A stretch of 33,822 bases of DNA from a virus: the IMG/VR virus record IMGVR_UViG_3300046777_001222, positions 1 to 33,822 of that record. One strand, 5' to 3'. Below the pieces are notes generated by a model, which saw only the letters and a program-made list of their open reading frames with translations, ran no database searches and was not told where the DNA came from. This document shows positions 27,695 through 33,822 of the stretch, one piece after another. How positions within the stretch are numbered: the stretch's first letter is position 1; each line of letters opens with the position of its first letter. Position numbers and translations under genes: made by a program.

Positions 27695-27888
27695 GGCTCC
27701 ATGGTGCCAAGGAGTCTGGCGACATACCACTGTGCCTTTCTTAACGATTCGGGCCCTTCCTTGTGGTTCATGCGCCAGATGTACTTCATCACGTTGCCCT
27801 TGCAAAACCCCCGGAACTCTTCCGGTGTCAGCGCGGCATGGATGGCGTCGATGCACTCGATCTCGCCGTGGCGGTAGTGGTCACTCAT
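27691..27888 (-). CDS. DUF3310 family protein
   Basis: The 65-residue protein starts MSDHYRHGEIECIDAIHAAL, then TPEEFRGFCKGNVMKYIWRM and ends SLRKAQWYVARLLGTMEP. This is the typical DUF3310 pattern: an HY near the start, EC/ID-A, F-x-x-GN-x-x-KY-x-x-R and LxKAxWY. Such proteins are common in phage nucleotide or DNA-metabolism regions; their activity is unclear to me. The ATG at 27888 has GAGG nine bases upstream, better than the ATG at 27897. Its stop overlaps the next start as ATGA. Confidence 0.85.
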   Translation of the reverse strand: MSDHYRHGEIECIDAIHAALTPEEFRGFCKGNVMKYIWRMNHKEGPESLRKAQWYVARLLGTMEP

Positions 27889-28111
27889 GGTTGCCATCCT
27901 CGAGCGCGGCCGCCATCACCGACGCTGAGCGCAGCATGGTGCTCAGCTTGATGGGCCGCATTTCCTTCCAGCACGCGTACCGGATCGCCTGCCTGAAGCC
28001 CATGCTGATGTTGCCATCGCCCAGCTTCCGCGCGGCCTCGATCTCCTCGCGGCTCATCCTGATGTTGACCGTGAAGTTGCGGCCTTTGCCGTTGGGCTTG
28101 CGGTCGGTCAC
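27881..28111 (-). CDS. Probable ribbon-helix-helix DNA-binding protein
   Basis: The 76-residue protein starts (GTG) MTDRKPNGKGRNFTVNIRMS. A short strand (RNFTVNIRMS) is followed by two helices (REEIEAARKLGDG then NISMGFRQAIRYACWKEM), which is the order of an Arc/CopG-type ribbon-helix-helix. A C-terminal helix (LSTMLRSASVMAAALED) follows. The GTG overlaps the upstream stop as GTGA. If the call is right it may regulate this small-gene operon. The fold is inferred by eye. Confidence 0.65.
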   Translation of the reverse strand: MTDRKPNGKGRNFTVNIRMSREEIEAARKLGDGNISMGFRQAIRYACWKEMRPIKLSTMLRSASVMAAALEDGNHE

Positions 28112-28377
28112 AACCACTTCTCCCTGAGCAAGAACCGCCGGCACACGGCGATGCACTGCTGCGCGTGCTTCTCGGCCAGGTGGCTTTCGGTGTGGTCGAT
28201 CGCGATCACGCAGGCAGCGTGAAGGTCGGCGTAGTCGGTGTCCCTGAAGTTGGTGGCGATGTCTTGGCAGAACTCCTGCCACAGGCCGGTGTAGGTGCCG
28301 CAGGTGCGGCCACTGGCCTGATACAACGAATCGAGCATTTCGGCGCGTTGCTGGTCGAGTCGGACGCGGGTCAGCAT
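28108..28377 (-). CDS. Small helical protein
   Basis: The 89-residue protein starts MLTRVRLDQQRAEMLDSLYQ and continues ASGRTCGTYTGLWQEFCQDI. A charged helix (HTESHLAEKHAQQCIAVCRR) lies near the end, which reads FLLREKWL. It is helical throughout with several cysteines. It overlaps both neighbours, by 7 bases upstream and 4 downstream. I do not recognise a family. Confidence 0.65.
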   Translation of the reverse strand: MLTRVRLDQQRAEMLDSLYQASGRTCGTYTGLWQEFCQDIATNFRDTDYADLHAACVIAIDHTESHLAEKHAQQCIAVCRRFLLREKWL

Positions 28378-28574
28378 GGTTCCAATGCTTGGCGGATTCT
28401 GAGCAGTTCAGCGCACACGGCGCTGACATGCGGCACGCTACCGGCGCTGCGCAGCTCGTCGATCCTTGCGGTGATCAACAACTGCAACCGGCGGCGCTCT
28501 TCAAGCTGGCCGGCGTTGAACATGCCCGAGTCACTGATCAGCGCTTCGAGCTTGGCGCGGATGTGATCGGTCAT
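28371..28574 (-). CDS. Small helical protein
   Basis: The 67-residue protein starts MTDHIRAKLEALISDSGMFN, then AGQLEERRRLQLLITARIDE and a third helix (VSAVCAELLRIRQALEPC). It looks like a compact three-helix bundle or a coiled-coil oligomer. The start overlaps the upstream stop as ATGA and the stop overlaps the next start by seven bases. No family recognised. Confidence 0.65.
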   Translation of the reverse strand: MTDHIRAKLEALISDSGMFNAGQLEERRRLQLLITARIDELRSAGSVPHVSAVCAELLRIRQALEPC

Positions 28575-28762: not shown

Positions 28763-28938
28763 TGGTGCAGCGCTGGGTCGGTCACAGTTTGCGGGTTGAG
28801 CCATTCCAGTTCGGACCACCACGGCAGCCAGCCTGTTTCGGCAGCGATCTGCTGCGCTTCGGTCAGGCTGTGCGCCGTGATGGCCTCGATCACGTTGGCG
28901 CTGCGGATCTGGAAGTAGAAGCGGCGCATGGTTGTCAT
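28759..28938 (-). CDS. Small hypothetical protein
   Basis: The 59-residue protein starts MTTMRRFYFQIRSANVIEAI, then TAHSLTEAQQIAAETGWLPW and ends LEWLNPQTVTDPALHQ. It has a strand, a helix (LTEAQQIAAETG) and a tryptophan-rich end. Strand-then-helix topology with 'A-x-S-L-T-E-A' is shared in outline with the product at 28571-28762. ATG at 28938 overlaps the upstream stop as ATGA, which decides the start. Function unknown. Confidence 0.65.
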   Translation of the reverse strand: MTTMRRFYFQIRSANVIEAITAHSLTEAQQIAAETGWLPWWSELEWLNPQTVTDPALHQ

Positions 28939-29153
28939 GGCATTTCTGCGGTGGTAAACAAGTTCGCCATCGCTTGTTCGCACAACTCAAGCTGATACAG
29001 GACCGGACTGTTGGTCGCGGGAAACTTGCGGCGATAGTGAACGCCAATCTTGAGCAGTCCAGCGGCGCGCCAGCGGAACAGGGTGCGCTCGCTTATCTGC
29101 AGATAGTCAGCTGCCTGACGTTGCGTGACCCATGGGGTTGCGGAGTTTGTCAT
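28935..29153 (-). CDS. Helix-turn-helix DNA-binding protein (excisionase/MerR-like)
   Basis: The 72-residue protein starts MTNSATPWVTQRQAADYLQI and continues SERTLFRWRAAGLLKIGVHY. This is the HTH_17/excisionase pattern: TQRQAADYLQIS (first helix), then ERTLFRWRAAGLL (recognition helix), then a wing (HYRRKFP). A C-terminal segment (LYQLELCEQAMANLF) could dimerise. It probably binds a phage operator or attachment DNA. ATGA overlaps join it to both neighbours. Confidence 0.8.
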   Translation of the reverse strand: MTNSATPWVTQRQAADYLQISERTLFRWRAAGLLKIGVHYRRKFPATNSPVLYQLELCEQAMANLFTTAEMP

Positions 29154-29278
29154 GGCTTCAGGTTCTGATGGCAGGCGGGATGGTTGTGGTGCGCTTTCAC
29201 GGCGTCGGTGCGGCCGGTGTCGAGACCGGCCACATAGACCATCAGCAGCAGAACAGCGGCGGCGATGCGGTTGATCAT
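29150..29278 (-). CDS. 42-residue membrane or exported peptide
   Basis: The sequence starts MINRIAAAVLLLMVYVAGLD and goes on TGRTDAVKAHHNHPACHQNL. A short basic N-terminus, a hydrophobic core (IAAAVLLLMVYVAGL) and a polar histidine-rich end (HHNHPACHQ) give a signal-anchor look, with possible metal binding outside. ATGA overlaps on both sides. Function unknown. Confidence 0.55.
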   Translation of the reverse strand: MINRIAAAVLLLMVYVAGLDTGRTDAVKAHHNHPACHQNLKP

Positions 29279-29469
29279 GATGCGAGCGCCTTGCGGACGC
29301 GGTAGCGGGTGATGTGAAGCGAGTCAGCGATCTGGCGCTGGCTGCGGCCGGCATGGGCCAGCACGCGAACACGGCGATCGGTGGAAGCGGTCAGCCAGTC
29401 GATCAAAGCGACCAGCACCAGCAGCGGCAGGAACAGCTTCCAGATCACCAGGGCAGTGGCGGTGAGCAT
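29275..29469 (-). CDS. Membrane-anchored helix-turn-helix protein
   Basis: The 64-residue protein has a long N-terminal transmembrane helix (TALVIWKLFLPLLVLVALID, residues 5-24) and a C-terminal HTH-like segment (RVRVLAHAGRSQRQIADSLH, then ITRYRVRKALAS), i.e. the 'S-Q-R-Q-I-A-x-x-L-x-I-x-x-x-x-V-R-K-A' pattern of resolvase/LuxR-type HTHs. The ATG at 29469 is chosen over one at 29523, since the extra 18 residues look unstructured. A DNA-binding domain fixed to the membrane is unusual for so short a protein. ATGA overlap with the next gene. Confidence 0.65.
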   Translation of the reverse strand: MLTATALVIWKLFLPLLVLVALIDWLTASTDRRVRVLAHAGRSQRQIADSLHITRYRVRKALAS

Positions 29470-29519: not shown

Positions 29520-29804
29520 TCAAGCGGCCTTGTCACATTTGTTCATGCCGCCGGTGACTCGCAGGATCTGCCGCATGTCCGCCTCCTCGACGTGCTGCAG
29601 CGTCACCGTCACCGGCACACGCAGCACCGGCTTTGACTGCATCGACGCAGCCCATCCCACCGTGTAGTCCGGCACACGCGTCTCGACCGTGAACCACTTG
29701 AACCCGCACGCTTTGCACAACCGATAGCGCACCACCTGGCTCGGCAGTTTGTTGTTCGTGTGCTTCACGCGGAGATCACTGCTACAGCACTTCGGACAAT
29801 TCAT
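29520..29804 (-). CDS. Zinc-ribbon protein with NrdR-like N-terminus
   Basis: The 94-residue protein starts MNCPKCCSSDLRVKHTNNKL with a second CxxC in YRLCKACGFKWFTVET, giving C3, C6, C30 and C33 as zinc ligands. This layout is like the NrdR or Ogr/Delta zinc ribbon, and the F-x-T-V-E-T end is typical of NrdR. The NrdR ATP-cone domain is missing, and the C-terminal 45 residues are unlike it. A transcription-factor role is possible. It is the first gene of the long minus chain. A GTG two codons upstream is an alternative start. Confidence 0.75.
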   Translation of the reverse strand: MNCPKCCSSDLRVKHTNNKLPSQVVRYRLCKACGFKWFTVETRVPDYTVGWAASMQSKPVLRVPVTVTLQHVEEADMRQILRVTGGMNKCDKAA

Positions 29805-29813
29805 TGGCACGAT

Positions 29814-30051: not shown

Positions 30052-30407
30052 ATCACCGTGCCGCCGGTCGCCTTGGCCAGGCTTGTGGCCGCGGCCTCGG
30101 CAGTGGCGCCCGCCTCCTCGATCGCTTTCTGCGTCTTGTAGTCAGGCTCAATCGCCATCGACACATACGCGTCACCGCCGCTGGCCGGCTCCTTGCGCCA
30201 GCCGCTAATCCGCATCGGGATGTTGCCCCGATCGTTCGGCGTGGCATTCATCAGGTAATTGGCCATCGCATACGCCTGATCGGCCGGCACCCCGATCACG
30301 CCGTCATACATCGGATAATTCTTCGATGCGTCGTACCGGTCGCGCAGCCGCTCGCGCAGCTTTTGCTCGGTGTTTCTGAACAGTGCGCCGTTTGCTTTGA
30401 AGGTCAT
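30033..30407 (-). CDS. Recombination-operon protein with SSB-like C-terminal tip
   Basis: The 124-residue protein starts MTFKANGALFRNTEQKLRER, then YDASKNYPMYDGVIGVPADQ, and a beta segment (NIPMRISGWRKEP, DAYVSMAIEP). Its end reads GGTVIQDDVF, an acidic-hydrophobic tip like the 'DDxxF' of bacterial single-strand-binding proteins. It sits in the RecE/RecT operon, where a phage SSB is expected. An OB fold is possible but not provable by eye, so SSB is inference. The start overlaps the upstream stop as ATGA. Confidence 0.65.
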   Translation of the reverse strand: MTFKANGALFRNTEQKLRERLRDRYDASKNYPMYDGVIGVPADQAYAMANYLMNATPNDRGNIPMRISGWRKEPASGGDAYVSMAIEPDYKTQKAIEEAGATAEAAATSLAKATGGTVIQDDVF

Positions 30408-30595
30408 GATTCGTTGTGGGTGATGGTGTTGGCCTTCTCGTATTGCTCAACCTCGGCCAATGGGTAGAGCACGAAACCGGGCGTCCTGAAATAGGCGGGG
30501 CCCTTGCCTGCCTTGCGCCAGCGCATCAGCGTGTCAGGGTGCAACCCCCAACGCTGCGCCAGCTGCGGCGCGGTCAGATAATCAGAAGAGGTCAT
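30404..30595 (-). CDS. Helix-turn-helix protein (excisionase-like)
   Basis: The 63-residue protein starts MTSSDYLTAPQLAQRWGLHP, then DTLMRWRKAGKGPAYFRTPG and FVLYPLAEVEQYEKAN. This is the canonical HTH_17 pattern: LTAPQLAQRWG (helix 1), PDTLMRWRKAGKGP (recognition helix) and YPLAEVEQYE. Such proteins act as excisionases or operon regulators. The start ATG at 30595 lies within the end of the RecT-like gene (14-base overlap). No integrase is in view, so excisionase rather than regulator cannot be decided. Confidence 0.85.
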   Translation of the reverse strand: MTSSDYLTAPQLAQRWGLHPDTLMRWRKAGKGPAYFRTPGFVLYPLAEVEQYEKANTITHNES

Positions 30596-31259
30596 CGGCC
30601 ACAATCTCCACGGGTTCGGGGTCAGGGTCTGCCGTGATCTTGGCGTTCAGGTCGTCGAGCGTCGTTGTTTCAGGCGCTTGCTCAGTGACCTTGACCGGCT
30701 CGATATCCACTACTTCCTCCTGGCTCTGCATCCCGAGCAACATGTCGCTGGCGTACAGCCTGCCCCAGAATGCCGCGGCCCGGTAGCGGATCATCAGCTC
30801 CGGCATCGTCTGCCATTTGCTGCCCGACTTCGTGGCCCAACCCTCTTTCTTGGCCATGGCCATCGTGATCGTCGGCCCCTTCAGCTCCTGCTGACTGGCC
30901 AGGTCAGTCGCGACGGCATAACACGCAAGGCTGTCGCCTTCGCCGCTCAGCTCAAACCGTAACGGGCTGAACCGGCCGCAGCCATTGACCATCGCGATGA
31001 TGAAACTGCTGCTCCACGACGGGCGGCCGTGGATCACATGCAGGTGCTGCATCGCCAGAAACGGGCTGATGCCCATCCGGTTGGCGATCTCAAGCGCAAC
31101 CAAGCAGTTGGCGAAGCCCTGCTGTCCTTGGAACTGTGGCGGAATCAGCGTGCTGCTGGCAAGCGCTTTGGCGATCCGCTGGGCGTCCTCGAACGCCTTA
31201 ATCCCCGAGAAGACGGAGCCGGTGCTGGTGATGGTGAGGGCGGTGGATTGGTCGGTCAT
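30582..31259 (-). CDS. RecT-like single-strand annealing protein
   Basis: The 225-residue protein pairs complementary single strands after RecE-type resection. Family-type stretches include FEDAQRIAKALASSTLIPPQ, FANCLVALEIANRMGISPFL, AMQHLHVIHGRPSWSSSFI and PELMIRYRAAAFWGRLYASD. After about residue 180 there is an acidic linker (EEVVDIEPVKV ... DPDPEPVEI) ending VADDLF, an SSB-like tip. Its start overlaps the small gene at 31256 as ATGA. With the RecE-like gene it forms a complete exonuclease/annealase pair. Confidence 0.9.
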   Translation of the reverse strand: MTDQSTALTITSTGSVFSGIKAFEDAQRIAKALASSTLIPPQFQGQQGFANCLVALEIANRMGISPFLAMQHLHVIHGRPSWSSSFIIAMVNGCGRFSPLRFELSGEGDSLACYAVATDLASQQELKGPTITMAMAKKEGWATKSGSKWQTMPELMIRYRAAAFWGRLYASDMLLGMQSQEEVVDIEPVKVTEQAPETTTLDDLNAKITADPDPEPVEIVADDLF

Positions 31260-31417
31260 GGTTGGAAGTCCGTGTCGATGTAAATACCAGCTAGATAGCG
31301 CTCTCTTGCATAACGCCGCATGTTGATCCGGTCCGTCTCAATGTCTGGGTGGATTAACGGCGGCGGCGGCATTAACGGCTTGAGCCTGTCCGGCGCGTAA
31401 AGGTTGCGGTTCTTCAT
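31256..31417 (-). CDS. 53-residue protein between exonuclease and annealase
   Basis: The sequence starts MKNRNLYAPDRLKPLMPPPP, then LIHPDIETDRINMRRYARER and ends YLAGIYIDTDFQP. It has a proline-rich middle and a charged helix. It overlaps the RecE-like stop by one base (TGATG) and the RecT-like start by four (ATGA), so it is an integral gene of the recombination operon. It might bridge the two enzymes, but that is only suggested by position. Confidence 0.6.
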   Translation of the reverse strand: MKNRNLYAPDRLKPLMPPPPLIHPDIETDRINMRRYARERYLAGIYIDTDFQP

Positions 31418-32256
31418 CAGTAAGTCTCGATCTCAGGTGAGTTAGGCAGTGAACCATCAGCCCGCGGCCGCATCCATGCGGGCAGGCTGAGCGGCTCGAT
31501 CTGGTCGCTGTATCCGGGCCAGGTGTTGCTGGCCTTGCATTCGACCAACCGGGCCAGATCACGCGCGGCGGTCTCGGCGCCGATCTGGATCATCTCCGCA
31601 TCGGCGGCATAGACGGCGCAGCAATACGGCGGCTTCTTTTCCACGCAGATGAAGATGAACTGATCGGGCCGGTGGCCGGTGGCCGCCTCAACCCCGTCGA
31701 GGTACCAGCTGGCCTGCACGTGGTAGCGATAATTCGCCACGCTGCGCTGGAAGCCGCTCGGGCTGGCATCCTCGGTCGTCTTGAGGTCGATGATCAGGTT
31801 GCCGTCATTGGTCAGCCAGTCCGGCCGGCACTTGCATTCGGCGCCGGTGGTCGGATCGGTCCACATGTGCGTGGTCTCGGCCTTGCCCTGCCAATGAAGC
31901 AGCATCGCCGCGGCCGGGTGGCGCCAGACTGATTCGGCCATGCGGCTGATGGTGGCGCGGTCGTCGGCGTCGATCAGTTCGCGGCCACCGGCTTCAGCTT
32001 GGAACTTGGCCCATACTTCCTTGCCCGCTTTGTATCGGCGGTCAACGGCAGGGGCCACGGCATAGCGGGCCTCAAACTGATCAGCCTCAAGCGTCAGCGC
32101 GTGGACAGCAGTCCCGAGCCGCATCGCATCAGTTGGCTCAGTGGGCACCCGGTTCTGGTCGATGTAGCGCGCCCAGTAGTGCAGCGGGGATTTTGCGATG
32201 AGATCCAAATGAGACTTTGAGATGGCGGGGTGGGCGTGGTAGTCGGCGTTCTCCAT
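31417..32256 (-). CDS. RecE-like 5'-3' exonuclease (PD-(D/E)XK, DUF3799-type)
   Basis: The 279-residue protein resects double-strand ends to leave 3' tails for RecT. Motifs visible: LGTAVH at 47-52, E127 in GKAETTH, D146 in CKCRPDWL, the core IIDLKTT (D157, K159), and Q181...Y185 in VQASWYLDG. The order H-E-D-DxK-Q-Y is that of RecE/lambda Exo family nucleases. The N-terminal HPAISKSHLDLIAKSPLHYW is also typical. It is the first gene of the minus operon; its promoter lies in the dyad at 32254-32311. ATG at 32256 is supported by that layout. Confidence 0.93.
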   Translation of the reverse strand: MENADYHAHPAISKSHLDLIAKSPLHYWARYIDQNRVPTEPTDAMRLGTAVHALTLEADQFEARYAVAPAVDRRYKAGKEVWAKFQAEAGGRELIDADDRATISRMAESVWRHPAAAMLLHWQGKAETTHMWTDPTTGAECKCRPDWLTNDGNLIIDLKTTEDASPSGFQRSVANYRYHVQASWYLDGVEAATGHRPDQFIFICVEKKPPYCCAVYAADAEMIQIGAETAARDLARLVECKASNTWPGYSDQIEPLSLPAWMRPRADGSLPNSPEIETY

Positions 32257-32311
32257 GGGTTGCAGAGACTTGCGCCATCCTATAGGGTGTTGCTGCCAGA
32301 TGCAACCTATG
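32254..32311. promoter_or_regulatory. Divergent promoter dyad covering both start codons
   Basis: CATGGGTTGCA (32254-32264) and TGCAACCTATG (32301-32311) are reverse complements at 10 of 11 positions; the outer CAT and ATG are the start codons of the divergent genes. Exactly at the centre (32279-32286) is the palindrome CCTATAGG. Read outward in each direction this gives TTGCA(G/T), 15 bases, TATAGG as a -35/-10-like pair, then about 22 bases to the ATG. The spacer is shorter than the usual 16-18, so promoter function is inferred; the symmetry is directly visible. Confidence 0.6.
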
Positions 32312-33822
32312 ACCTACTCAGACTTCCTAGCCTCAAAGTCCACCGCCTGCCCTGCAGTTGGGTTTGACCCGCAGCAGTTCACGGCGCCGCTGTTCCCATT
32401 TCAGCGTGACATCGTGACCATGGCCTGCCGCGTTGGCAGGTTCTGCATCTGGGCCGACTGCGGCATGGGCAAAACCGCCATGCAGCTGGAATGGGCATCC
32501 CAGGTTTGTCGTCACACCAAAGGCAACGTCCTTGTCTTAGCCCCGCTGGCCGTCGCACACCAGACCGTACGGGAGGGGGCCAAGTTCGGCATCCCATGCG
32601 CGTTCGCTGCAACCCAGGCCGAGGTGCAGCCCGGCATCACGATCACTAACTACGAGAAGCTCGGCCACTTCGACCCGGCGGGATTCGATGGCGTGGTGCT
32701 CGATGAGAGCAGCATCCTTAAGGCGTACACCGGCAAGATCCGCAATCAGATCATTGAGTCGTTCGCGCAGACGCCATTCCGGCTGGCCTGTTCAGCAACA
32801 CCAGCGCCGAACGATCACATGGAGCTAGGCAACCATGCCGAGTTCATCGGTGTGATGACCCGCACCGAGATGCTGGCGATGTTCTTTGTCCACGACGGCG
32901 GCGATACCAGCAAATGGCGGCTCAAGGGTCACGCTCAGTCGAAGTTCTGGGAGTGGGTCTGCAGCTGGGCCGTCACCATTCGCAAGCCATCAGATCTGGG
33001 CTACGACGACGGCAGCTTCATCCTGCCCGAGCTTCAGATCAATGACTGCACCGTCGAGACACCACGCGAGGCGATGGCTGACGACGCCGGCCAGATGGCG
33101 CTGTTTGCCATGGAAGCCCGCACCCTGAGCGATCAGCGACATGTGCGCAAAGCATCGCTGCAGATGCGCGTTAATGCAGCCGCAACCCTGGCCAATAACA
33201 GCACCGAGCAATGGCTGATCTGGTGTGATCTCAACGACGAATCCAAGGCGCTGACTGCTGCCATTGATGGCGCGGTGGAGGTGTCAGGCAGCGACAGCGA
33301 CGATCACAAGCAACAGTCCGCCATCGACTTTCAAGATGGCAAGATCCGCGTGCTGGTCAGCAAGCCCAGCATCTTCGGATTCGGACTCAACTTTCAAGGC
33401 TGCCACAACGTCGCCTTCGTTGGGTTGTCTCACAGCTACGAGGCGTTCTATCAAGCCATCCGCCGGTGCTGGCGATTCGGGCAGCAGCACCCGGTCAACG
33501 CGCACATCATTTACGACGTGGCCGAAGGCCGCGTGATCGACAACATCCGCCGCAAAGAAGCGGACAGCATCGCAATGGCTGAATCAATGGTCACCATCAT
33601 GAAGCAAACCACCATGGAACAACTGAAAAAGATCCAGCGCCAAGTGGCGCCACACATCACTGAGCACAAGTCCGGCGACAACTGGGACCTGTACATGGGC
33701 GACTGCGTTGAGAGCATTAAGCAACTTGACTCAGACAGCATTCACTACAGCATTTTCAGTCCGCCGTTCGCGTCGCTTTACACCTACTCGAACAGCGACC
33801 GGGACATGGGCAACAGCCGCAA
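32309..33822 (+). CDS. SNF2-type helicase fused to a DNA methyltransferase (cut by window end)
   Basis: The frame is open to the last base; about 504 residues are visible. Helicase motifs appear in order: CGMGKTA (Walker A, about 51-57), VVLDESS (motif II, about 128-134), CSATPAP (motif III, about 160-166), SKPSIFGFGLNFQG and QAIRRCWRFGQ (motifs V-VI, about 380-391). From about residue 460 a methyltransferase begins: LYMGDCVESIKQLDSD, then SIFSPPFASLYTYS, where SPPF is the motif IV of N4-cytosine/N6-adenine enzymes. The rest of the methyltransferase lies beyond the window. The helicase domain may move along DNA to deliver the methyltransferase or act in replication. ATG at 32309; no Shine-Dalgarno. 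Confidence 0.92.
   Translation, partial: MTYSDFLASKSTACPAVGFDPQQFTAPLFPFQRDIVTMACRVGRFCIWADCGMGKTAMQLEWASQVCRHTKGNVLVLAPLAVAHQTVREGAKFGIPCAFAATQAEVQPGITITNYEKLGHFDPAGFDGVVLDESSILKAYTGKIRNQIIESFAQTPFRLACSATPAPNDHMELGNHAEFIGVMTRTEMLAMFFVHDGGDTSKWRLKGHAQSKFWEWVCSWAVTIRKPSDLGYDDGSFILPELQINDCTVETPREAMADDAGQMALFAMEARTLSDQRHVRKASLQMRVNAAATLANNSTEQWLIWCDLNDESKALTAAIDGAVEVSGSDSDDHKQQSAIDFQDGKIRVLVSKPSIFGFGLNFQGCHNVAFVGLSHSYEAFYQAIRRCWRFGQQHPVNAHIIYDVAEGRVIDNIRRKEADSIAMAESMVTIMKQTTMEQLKKIQRQVAPHITEHKSGDNWDLYMGDCVESIKQLDSDSIHYSIFSPPFASLYTYSNSDRDMGNSR

Follow-up and report, generated by a model that had tools for sequence, protein, structure and literature searches.

A predicted bidirectional promoter overlaid by a helically phased direct-repeat array, with a BldC/RdfS-like protein as candidate binder, between the recombination and helicase-methyltransferase operons of a phage

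Bacteria commonly have bidirectional promoters, in which 7-25 bp separate the two transcription starts (PMC10268837, PMC12825309). RNA polymerase engages such a promoter either way, one binding event excluding the other, and in five E. coli examples the basal activity was too low for interference between the two directions (PMC12825309). Transcription is also regulated by RDFs and by BldC, whose binding sites are direct repeats with a period of about one helical turn (PMC7498355, PMC11963761, PMC5859096). The Apl protein of phage 186 represses pR and pL from seven direct-repeat sites one helical turn apart (PMC7498355), RdfS binds with a spacing of 10 bp per molecule (PMC11963761), and BldC is a small HTH protein that assembles head-to-tail on direct repeats approximately one turn apart (PMC5859096). 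Here, we compare with these systems a 58-bp spacer between two divergent phage operons. A literature search found neither a published description of this spacer nor work on transcriptional switching in S-CBS/S-LBS-type siphophages.

The window analyzed is the whole 33,822-nt stretch of the virus record IMGVR_UViG_3300046777_001222. The spacer (32254-32311, CATGGGTTGCAGAGACTTGCGCCATCCTATAGGGTGTTGCTGCCAGATGCAACCTATG) extends from the exonuclease start codon to the helicase-methyltransferase start codon, and the features of the locus are collected in Table 1. The exonuclease ATG at 32256 (-) holds, and the helicase-methyltransferase ATG at 32309 (+) is upheld by the alignments of most relatives, which begin at that methionine. 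The methyltransferase part of the fusion matches PHROG 67 at residues 455-516. The phage is akin to siphophages of cyanobacteria; by DNA, the nearest named relative of the 33.8-kb record is Synechococcus phage S-CBS3, with 79% identity over the helicase-methylase gene. The record has no PF04542 match for a phage-encoded sigma factor; S-CBS1 and S-CBS3 do carry a PF04542 sigma factor. An NrdR-like zinc ribbon (E 4e-7) is present in another small protein of the recombination operon (29520-29810, -).

Table 1. Features of the divergent locus; promoter elements are predicted, and counts refer to dereplicated class A relatives.
Feature	Coordinates	Strand	Details
Predicted -10 of the exonuclease-operon promoter, TAGGAT	32277..32282	-	T, A, and final T 12/12 each; second-last A 9/12
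Predicted -10 of the helicase-methyltransferase promoter, TAGGGT	32283..32288	+	T 12/12, A 10/12, G 12/12, final T 12/12
Predicted -35 of the exonuclease promoter, TTGCAT	32300..32305	-	TTG 12/12 in relatives with other right-hand genes
Predicted -35 of the helicase promoter, TTGCAG	32260..32265	+	TG 9 and 11 of 12, weaker than the other -35
10-bp-phased direct-repeat array	32260..32309	+	TTGCAGAGAC TTGCGCCATC (CTATAGGGTG) TTGCTGCCAG ATGCAACCTA
Dyad of the initial annotation	32254..32311	.	Arms 32254-32264 and 32301-32311; centre CCTATAGG at 32279-32286
RecE/exonuclease VIII-like PD-(D/E)XK nuclease	31417..32256	-	First gene of the leftward operon; DUF3799 E 2e-41; PHROG 412 exonuclease VIII E 5e-103
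RecT-like single-strand annealing protein	30582..31259	-	Exonuclease operon; PHROG 561 E 2e-78
Hth66, 63-aa winged-HTH protein	30404..30595	-	Exonuclease-RecT operon; HTH_17 E 4e-9
SNF2/ResIII-type helicase fused to DNA methyltransferase	32309..33822	+	Opens the rightward operon; truncated by the record end; PHROG 62 helicase E 1e-65

Within the spacer, two putative sigma-70-type promoters stand back to back, with each -35 (TTGCA) just inside the other gene's start codon and 17 bp between -35 and -10 in both directions. The central CCTATAGG is the product of two abutting divergent -10 hexamers, ATCCTA followed directly by TAGGGT. TANNNT was found on both strands at the predicted spacing (T1, A2, and T6 at 10-12/12). 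Both promoters are weak by strict sigma-70 consensus, taken as 9 or more of the 12 hexamer bases: each hexamer matches at 3-4 of 6 positions, and a consensus scan listed no site here. The predicted starts (~32295 on the plus strand and ~32270 on the minus strand, giving leaders of roughly 14 nt) are ~21-25 bp apart and thus fall within the published 7-25 bp definition of bidirectional promoters; RNA polymerase would occupy one orientation at a time. Competition between the two promoters is not to be assumed, since the five E. coli examples showed no interference. By its sequence, the site is a putative compact bidirectional promoter of a known kind. As in the bacterial bidirectional promoters of Warman/Grainger (PMC12825309, PMC10268837), a short segment would serve both orientations with near-symmetric -10s; however, those promoters share reciprocally placed bases at a usual start spacing of 18 bp, whereas here the -10s abut and the starts are predicted only.

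Comparison with relatives indicated which bases of the spacer are kept. Class A, defined by TAT(A/G)(G/C) near spacer column 28, comprises 48 loci with 30-31 unique spacers (58-mers), or 12 after dereplication. In the 12 dereplicated spacers, the invariant or near-invariant columns include ATNNTA abutting TANNNT together with a TTG 17 bp upstream of the leftward hexamer, so that the two -10 hexamers and the minus-strand -35 stand at fixed distances while other columns vary. The -10 facing the helicase gene reads TAGCAT or TAGGAT in relatives. The spacing between this core and the exonuclease gene is constant, whichever of three genes lies on the right: the helicase-methyltransferase, a different LRPYQ helicase, or a 341-aa protein ~115 nt away. 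With the other right-hand genes, the right start codon and the arm symmetry (2-7/11) are lost and the core is kept, which argues that the conserved object is the pair of abutting promoters, as read from these alignments. Among close relatives, 57-58 of the 58 spacer bases are identical, although the exonuclease is only 90-91% and the helicase 95-96% identical.

Class B relatives, many of which have the same exonuclease and helicase-methyltransferase pair, have spacers of 81-97 nt without CCTATAGG and without the arms. They retain a TANNNT facing each gene, the exonuclease -10 being TAGYAT (TAGCGT in one), and TANNNT precedes the helicase gene here as well. In most of them, including all with this helicase adjacent, the right-hand TANNNT is 26-27 bp further toward the right-hand gene, as measured from the start of the third 10-bp unit described below; the exonuclease -10 stays within that unit.

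The same 58 bp also contain a 10-bp-phased direct-repeat array that is far more significant than the dyad and was absent from the initial annotation. WTGC (TTGC/ATGC) begins at 32260, 32270, 32290, and 32300, that is, in four of five slots at exactly 10 bp, with CTATAGGGTG in the third slot. Such an array has the at least three direct repeats approximately one helical turn apart that are expected of a phased operator. Four or more phased units at any period of 8-12 were obtained in 0 of 100,000 shuffles. The window has no other array of at least four units, and in the scanned loci all arrays of this size lie upstream of the exonuclease gene. Class B spacers carry four to five 10-bp units, most of them WTGC-initial, directly after the exonuclease start codon (in L120, with five perfect units, TTGCGGCGAG TTGCGGGTAA ATGCTAGCGG ATGCAGCAAG ATGCGCTACG). 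In 14 dereplicated class B spacers, pairs of WTGC were separated by 10, 20, and 30 bp 18, 12, and 9 times, respectively, whereas distances that are not multiples of 10 never occurred more than three times and shuffles gave 0.07 at distance 10. As a guard against hand-picking, 640 four-letter motifs were scored blindly at five periods (8-12). First rank went to WTGC at period 10 in class B (23; null maximum, 3) and to period 10 in class A (9; null maximum, 3). Period 10 again led in class C (L063, L311, and others), whose spacer lies between an LTLRDYQ helicase and the exonuclease and whose Hth66 variant is ~45% identical, with a purine core and a weak signal (13; null maximum, 8).

The array register is kept upstream of the exonuclease gene in relatives even where the helicase promoter has moved; since the exonuclease -10 is still in unit 3 when the class B helicase TANNNT is displaced, the register is independent of the helicase promoter position. 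Its orientation is less constant. Part of the periodic signal in class A is on the opposite strand (ATGCTATACG ATGTGGCTTG TTGCGTCACG in L040), and some class A relatives have only three units, on the opposite strand, even with an Hth66 of 98% identity in one case (L006). Thus, array strand and unit number vary even between phages with near-identical Hth66. When five WTGC units at 10-bp steps were sought across viruses, at least 120 stretches were returned, and no Hth66 relative was found among those listed. Among these, only L277 is accompanied by a RecT relative, and its repeats fall within coding sequence, as do those of L192. With matches that lack Hth66 and repeats in coding DNA, the bare WTGC pattern is unspecific outside this gene context.

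Two arrangements at related loci were observed in passing. A ~900-nt insertion in L092, L009, L010, L088, and L020 parts the exonuclease promoter and array from the helicase gene, and the array (TTGC, TTGC, ATGC, ATGT at 10 bp) stays with the exonuclease. In L140, L137, L101, and similar loci, a helicase gene that is not adjacent to the exonuclease carries a promoter-like element of its own, TTGCA(A/C)-N17-TACG(G/C)T, ~60-20 nt upstream of its start, and this element is nested in the inverted repeat CTTGCAA..CGTAGCA / TGCTACG..TTGCAAG. By eye, the arrangement at L101 and L140, TTGCAA...TACGGT, differs from that of the divergent spacer.

The array could in principle be a passive feature. The spacer would then be a bidirectional promoter and nothing more, with the WTGC periodicity being a relic of tandem duplication or a set of -35-like elements to which no regulator binds. 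We regard this as unlikely, though deserving of serious weight, as promoter elements alone explain the dyad and the best-conserved columns, and bidirectional promoters of this start spacing (7-25 bp) are frequent in bacteria (PMC10268837, PMC12825309). However, the units keep the WTGC core while their other six positions diverge, displacement of the helicase -10 leaves the 10-bp register intact, and the non-promoter units at 32270 and 32290 keep WTGC too. Of the promoter elements, the helicase -35 coincides with unit 1 and the exonuclease -35 overlaps unit 5.

If the array is an operator, its conserved repeats, being direct and 10 bp apart, fit a head-to-tail binder. The most likely one, as judged from sequence, predicted structure, and analogy, is Hth66, encoded two genes after the exonuclease and found in every relative with enough flanking sequence. 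A profile built from 42 Hth66 homologues matched RdfS first (8dgl, E 2e-6) and then BldC (E 0.02). For the AlphaFold model (pLDDT 85), the top-scoring solved structures were RdfS and BldC, both in Foldseek (probability 1.00, TM ~0.7) and in VIA-align (Z scores of 8.1 for RdfS and 7.1 for BldC); lower-ranked matches included further excisionases and the DNA-binding protein of phage P2 (4lhf). Both sequence and predicted fold therefore place Hth66 among the RdfS/BldC-like winged-HTH proteins. The co-occurrence of Hth66 and the array is confounded by shared ancestry. A search covering integrases of the tyrosine family (PF00589) found no match in the record; since no tyrosine integrase was found, though the record may be an incomplete fragment, a purely regulatory role of Hth66 would be the simpler reading.

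Binding of the array by another protein appears improbable. The candidates are another excisionase-like HTH_17 protein of the operon (28935-29372, -; HTH_17 E 1e-5, listed start uncertain), which some relatives also have there, an RHH-like protein (27881-28429), or a host regulator. Both phage genes are nearby, but across the array-keeping relatives the two are patchy (the second HTH_17 protein) or far more divergent, whereas Hth66 is present throughout.

The initial annotation had drawn attention to a dyad rather than to the array, and all its coordinates proved accurate. The arms CATGGGTTGCA and TGCAACCTATG match at 10 of 11 positions, CCTATAGG is centred on 32282.5, and TTGCAN-N15-TATAGG occurs once per strand in the whole record, here only. 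With the start codons excluded, 15 of 26 interior positions are symmetric, compared with a shuffle mean of 6.6 (P = 0.0007); the dyad exceeds chance, modestly. CAT...ATG symmetry is automatic for any divergent pair of ATG genes, and the start-codon symmetry, which had been thought meaningful, is not conserved (L006, L008, L040). TGCA, present in both arms, is self-complementary, so a WTGCA direct repeat also reads as an inverted repeat, and the two inverted arms are at the same time array units 1 and 5 and both -35s. The dyad is a by-product of the mirrored promoters and of the palindromic TGCA within direct repeats and, as far as the sequences of relatives tell, is not itself the functional unit. 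The proposal that divergent promoters overlap on the same DNA and exclude each other stood, but not in the form of a shared TATAGG at 15 bp. As a real -10, TATAGG was rejected, because the conservation maximum falls on TANNNT at a spacing of 17 bp and TATAGG straddles both hexamers. For CCTATAGG as a target affected by methylation we found no evidence, many relatives having GTATAGC instead. A symmetric dimeric repressor that would switch both genes from the arms and centre of the 58-bp dyad is very improbable, for although the interior symmetry is above shuffles and persists in the closest relatives (L013, L014), the arms match at only 2-7 of 11 positions in class A relatives that keep the promoter core, are absent from class B with the same genes (the gene pair without conserved arms being what the initial annotation had said would speak against its dyad), and, like the centre, are accounted for by two mirrored promoters without any symmetric protein.

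Based on the promoter-like conservation, the array with its strict period, its recurrence upstream of the exonuclease gene, and the kinship of Hth66, all read from sequence, we propose with a probability of roughly 0.6 that the spacer is a minimal bidirectional promoter combined with a phased operator, most likely bound by Hth66. The 10-bp WTGC direct repeats would overlie both promoters, and Hth66, by its kinship with RdfS and BldC, would bind them head-to-tail with one protomer per helical turn, blocking or reshaping both promoters at once. We infer repression rather than activation, and the outcome would be an Apl/Cox-like negative feedback on the RecE-RecT operon and the helicase-methyltransferase operon, as exerted by 186 Apl at pR-pL.

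On this proposal, the site combines in a new place two kinds of element that are already known, a bidirectional promoter and an Apl/BldC-type phased direct-repeat operator. It resembles the pR-pL region bound by 186 Apl, with P2 Cox (PMC7498355), in having a small phage HTH/excisionase-type protein (here a candidate), one-turn direct repeats over two opposed promoters, and a regulator gene within one of the operons. In contrast, the 186 promoters are convergent and those described here divergent, and Apl is also an excisionase, whereas no tyrosine integrase was found in this record. BldC and RdfS (6ama/6amk, 8dgl), to which Hth66 is similar by profile and predicted fold, form head-to-tail oligomers with approximately one protomer per 9-10 bp. 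However, BldC recognizes AATTNNNN(C) (PMC5859096) rather than the WTGC core, and RdfS has an extra N-terminal helix, whereas the Hth66 model has no helix before the first strand.

More tentatively, and with somewhat less than even confidence, we suggest that a filament-forming regulator of the BldC/RdfS type coats a whole 50-bp bidirectional promoter in one-turn steps and may thereby control both replication/recombination operons in phages without a detected integrase, the repeat register being kept throughout this group of phages while its strand is sometimes flipped and the promoters beneath it move. The locus offers a worked example of a striking dyad that arises as a by-product of mirrored promoters and palindromic TGCA in direct repeats. 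It also provides a candidate pair of regulator (63 aa) and operator (a 60-bp fragment) that is found again in dozens of environmental phages, which vary naturally in repeat orientation and promoter position.
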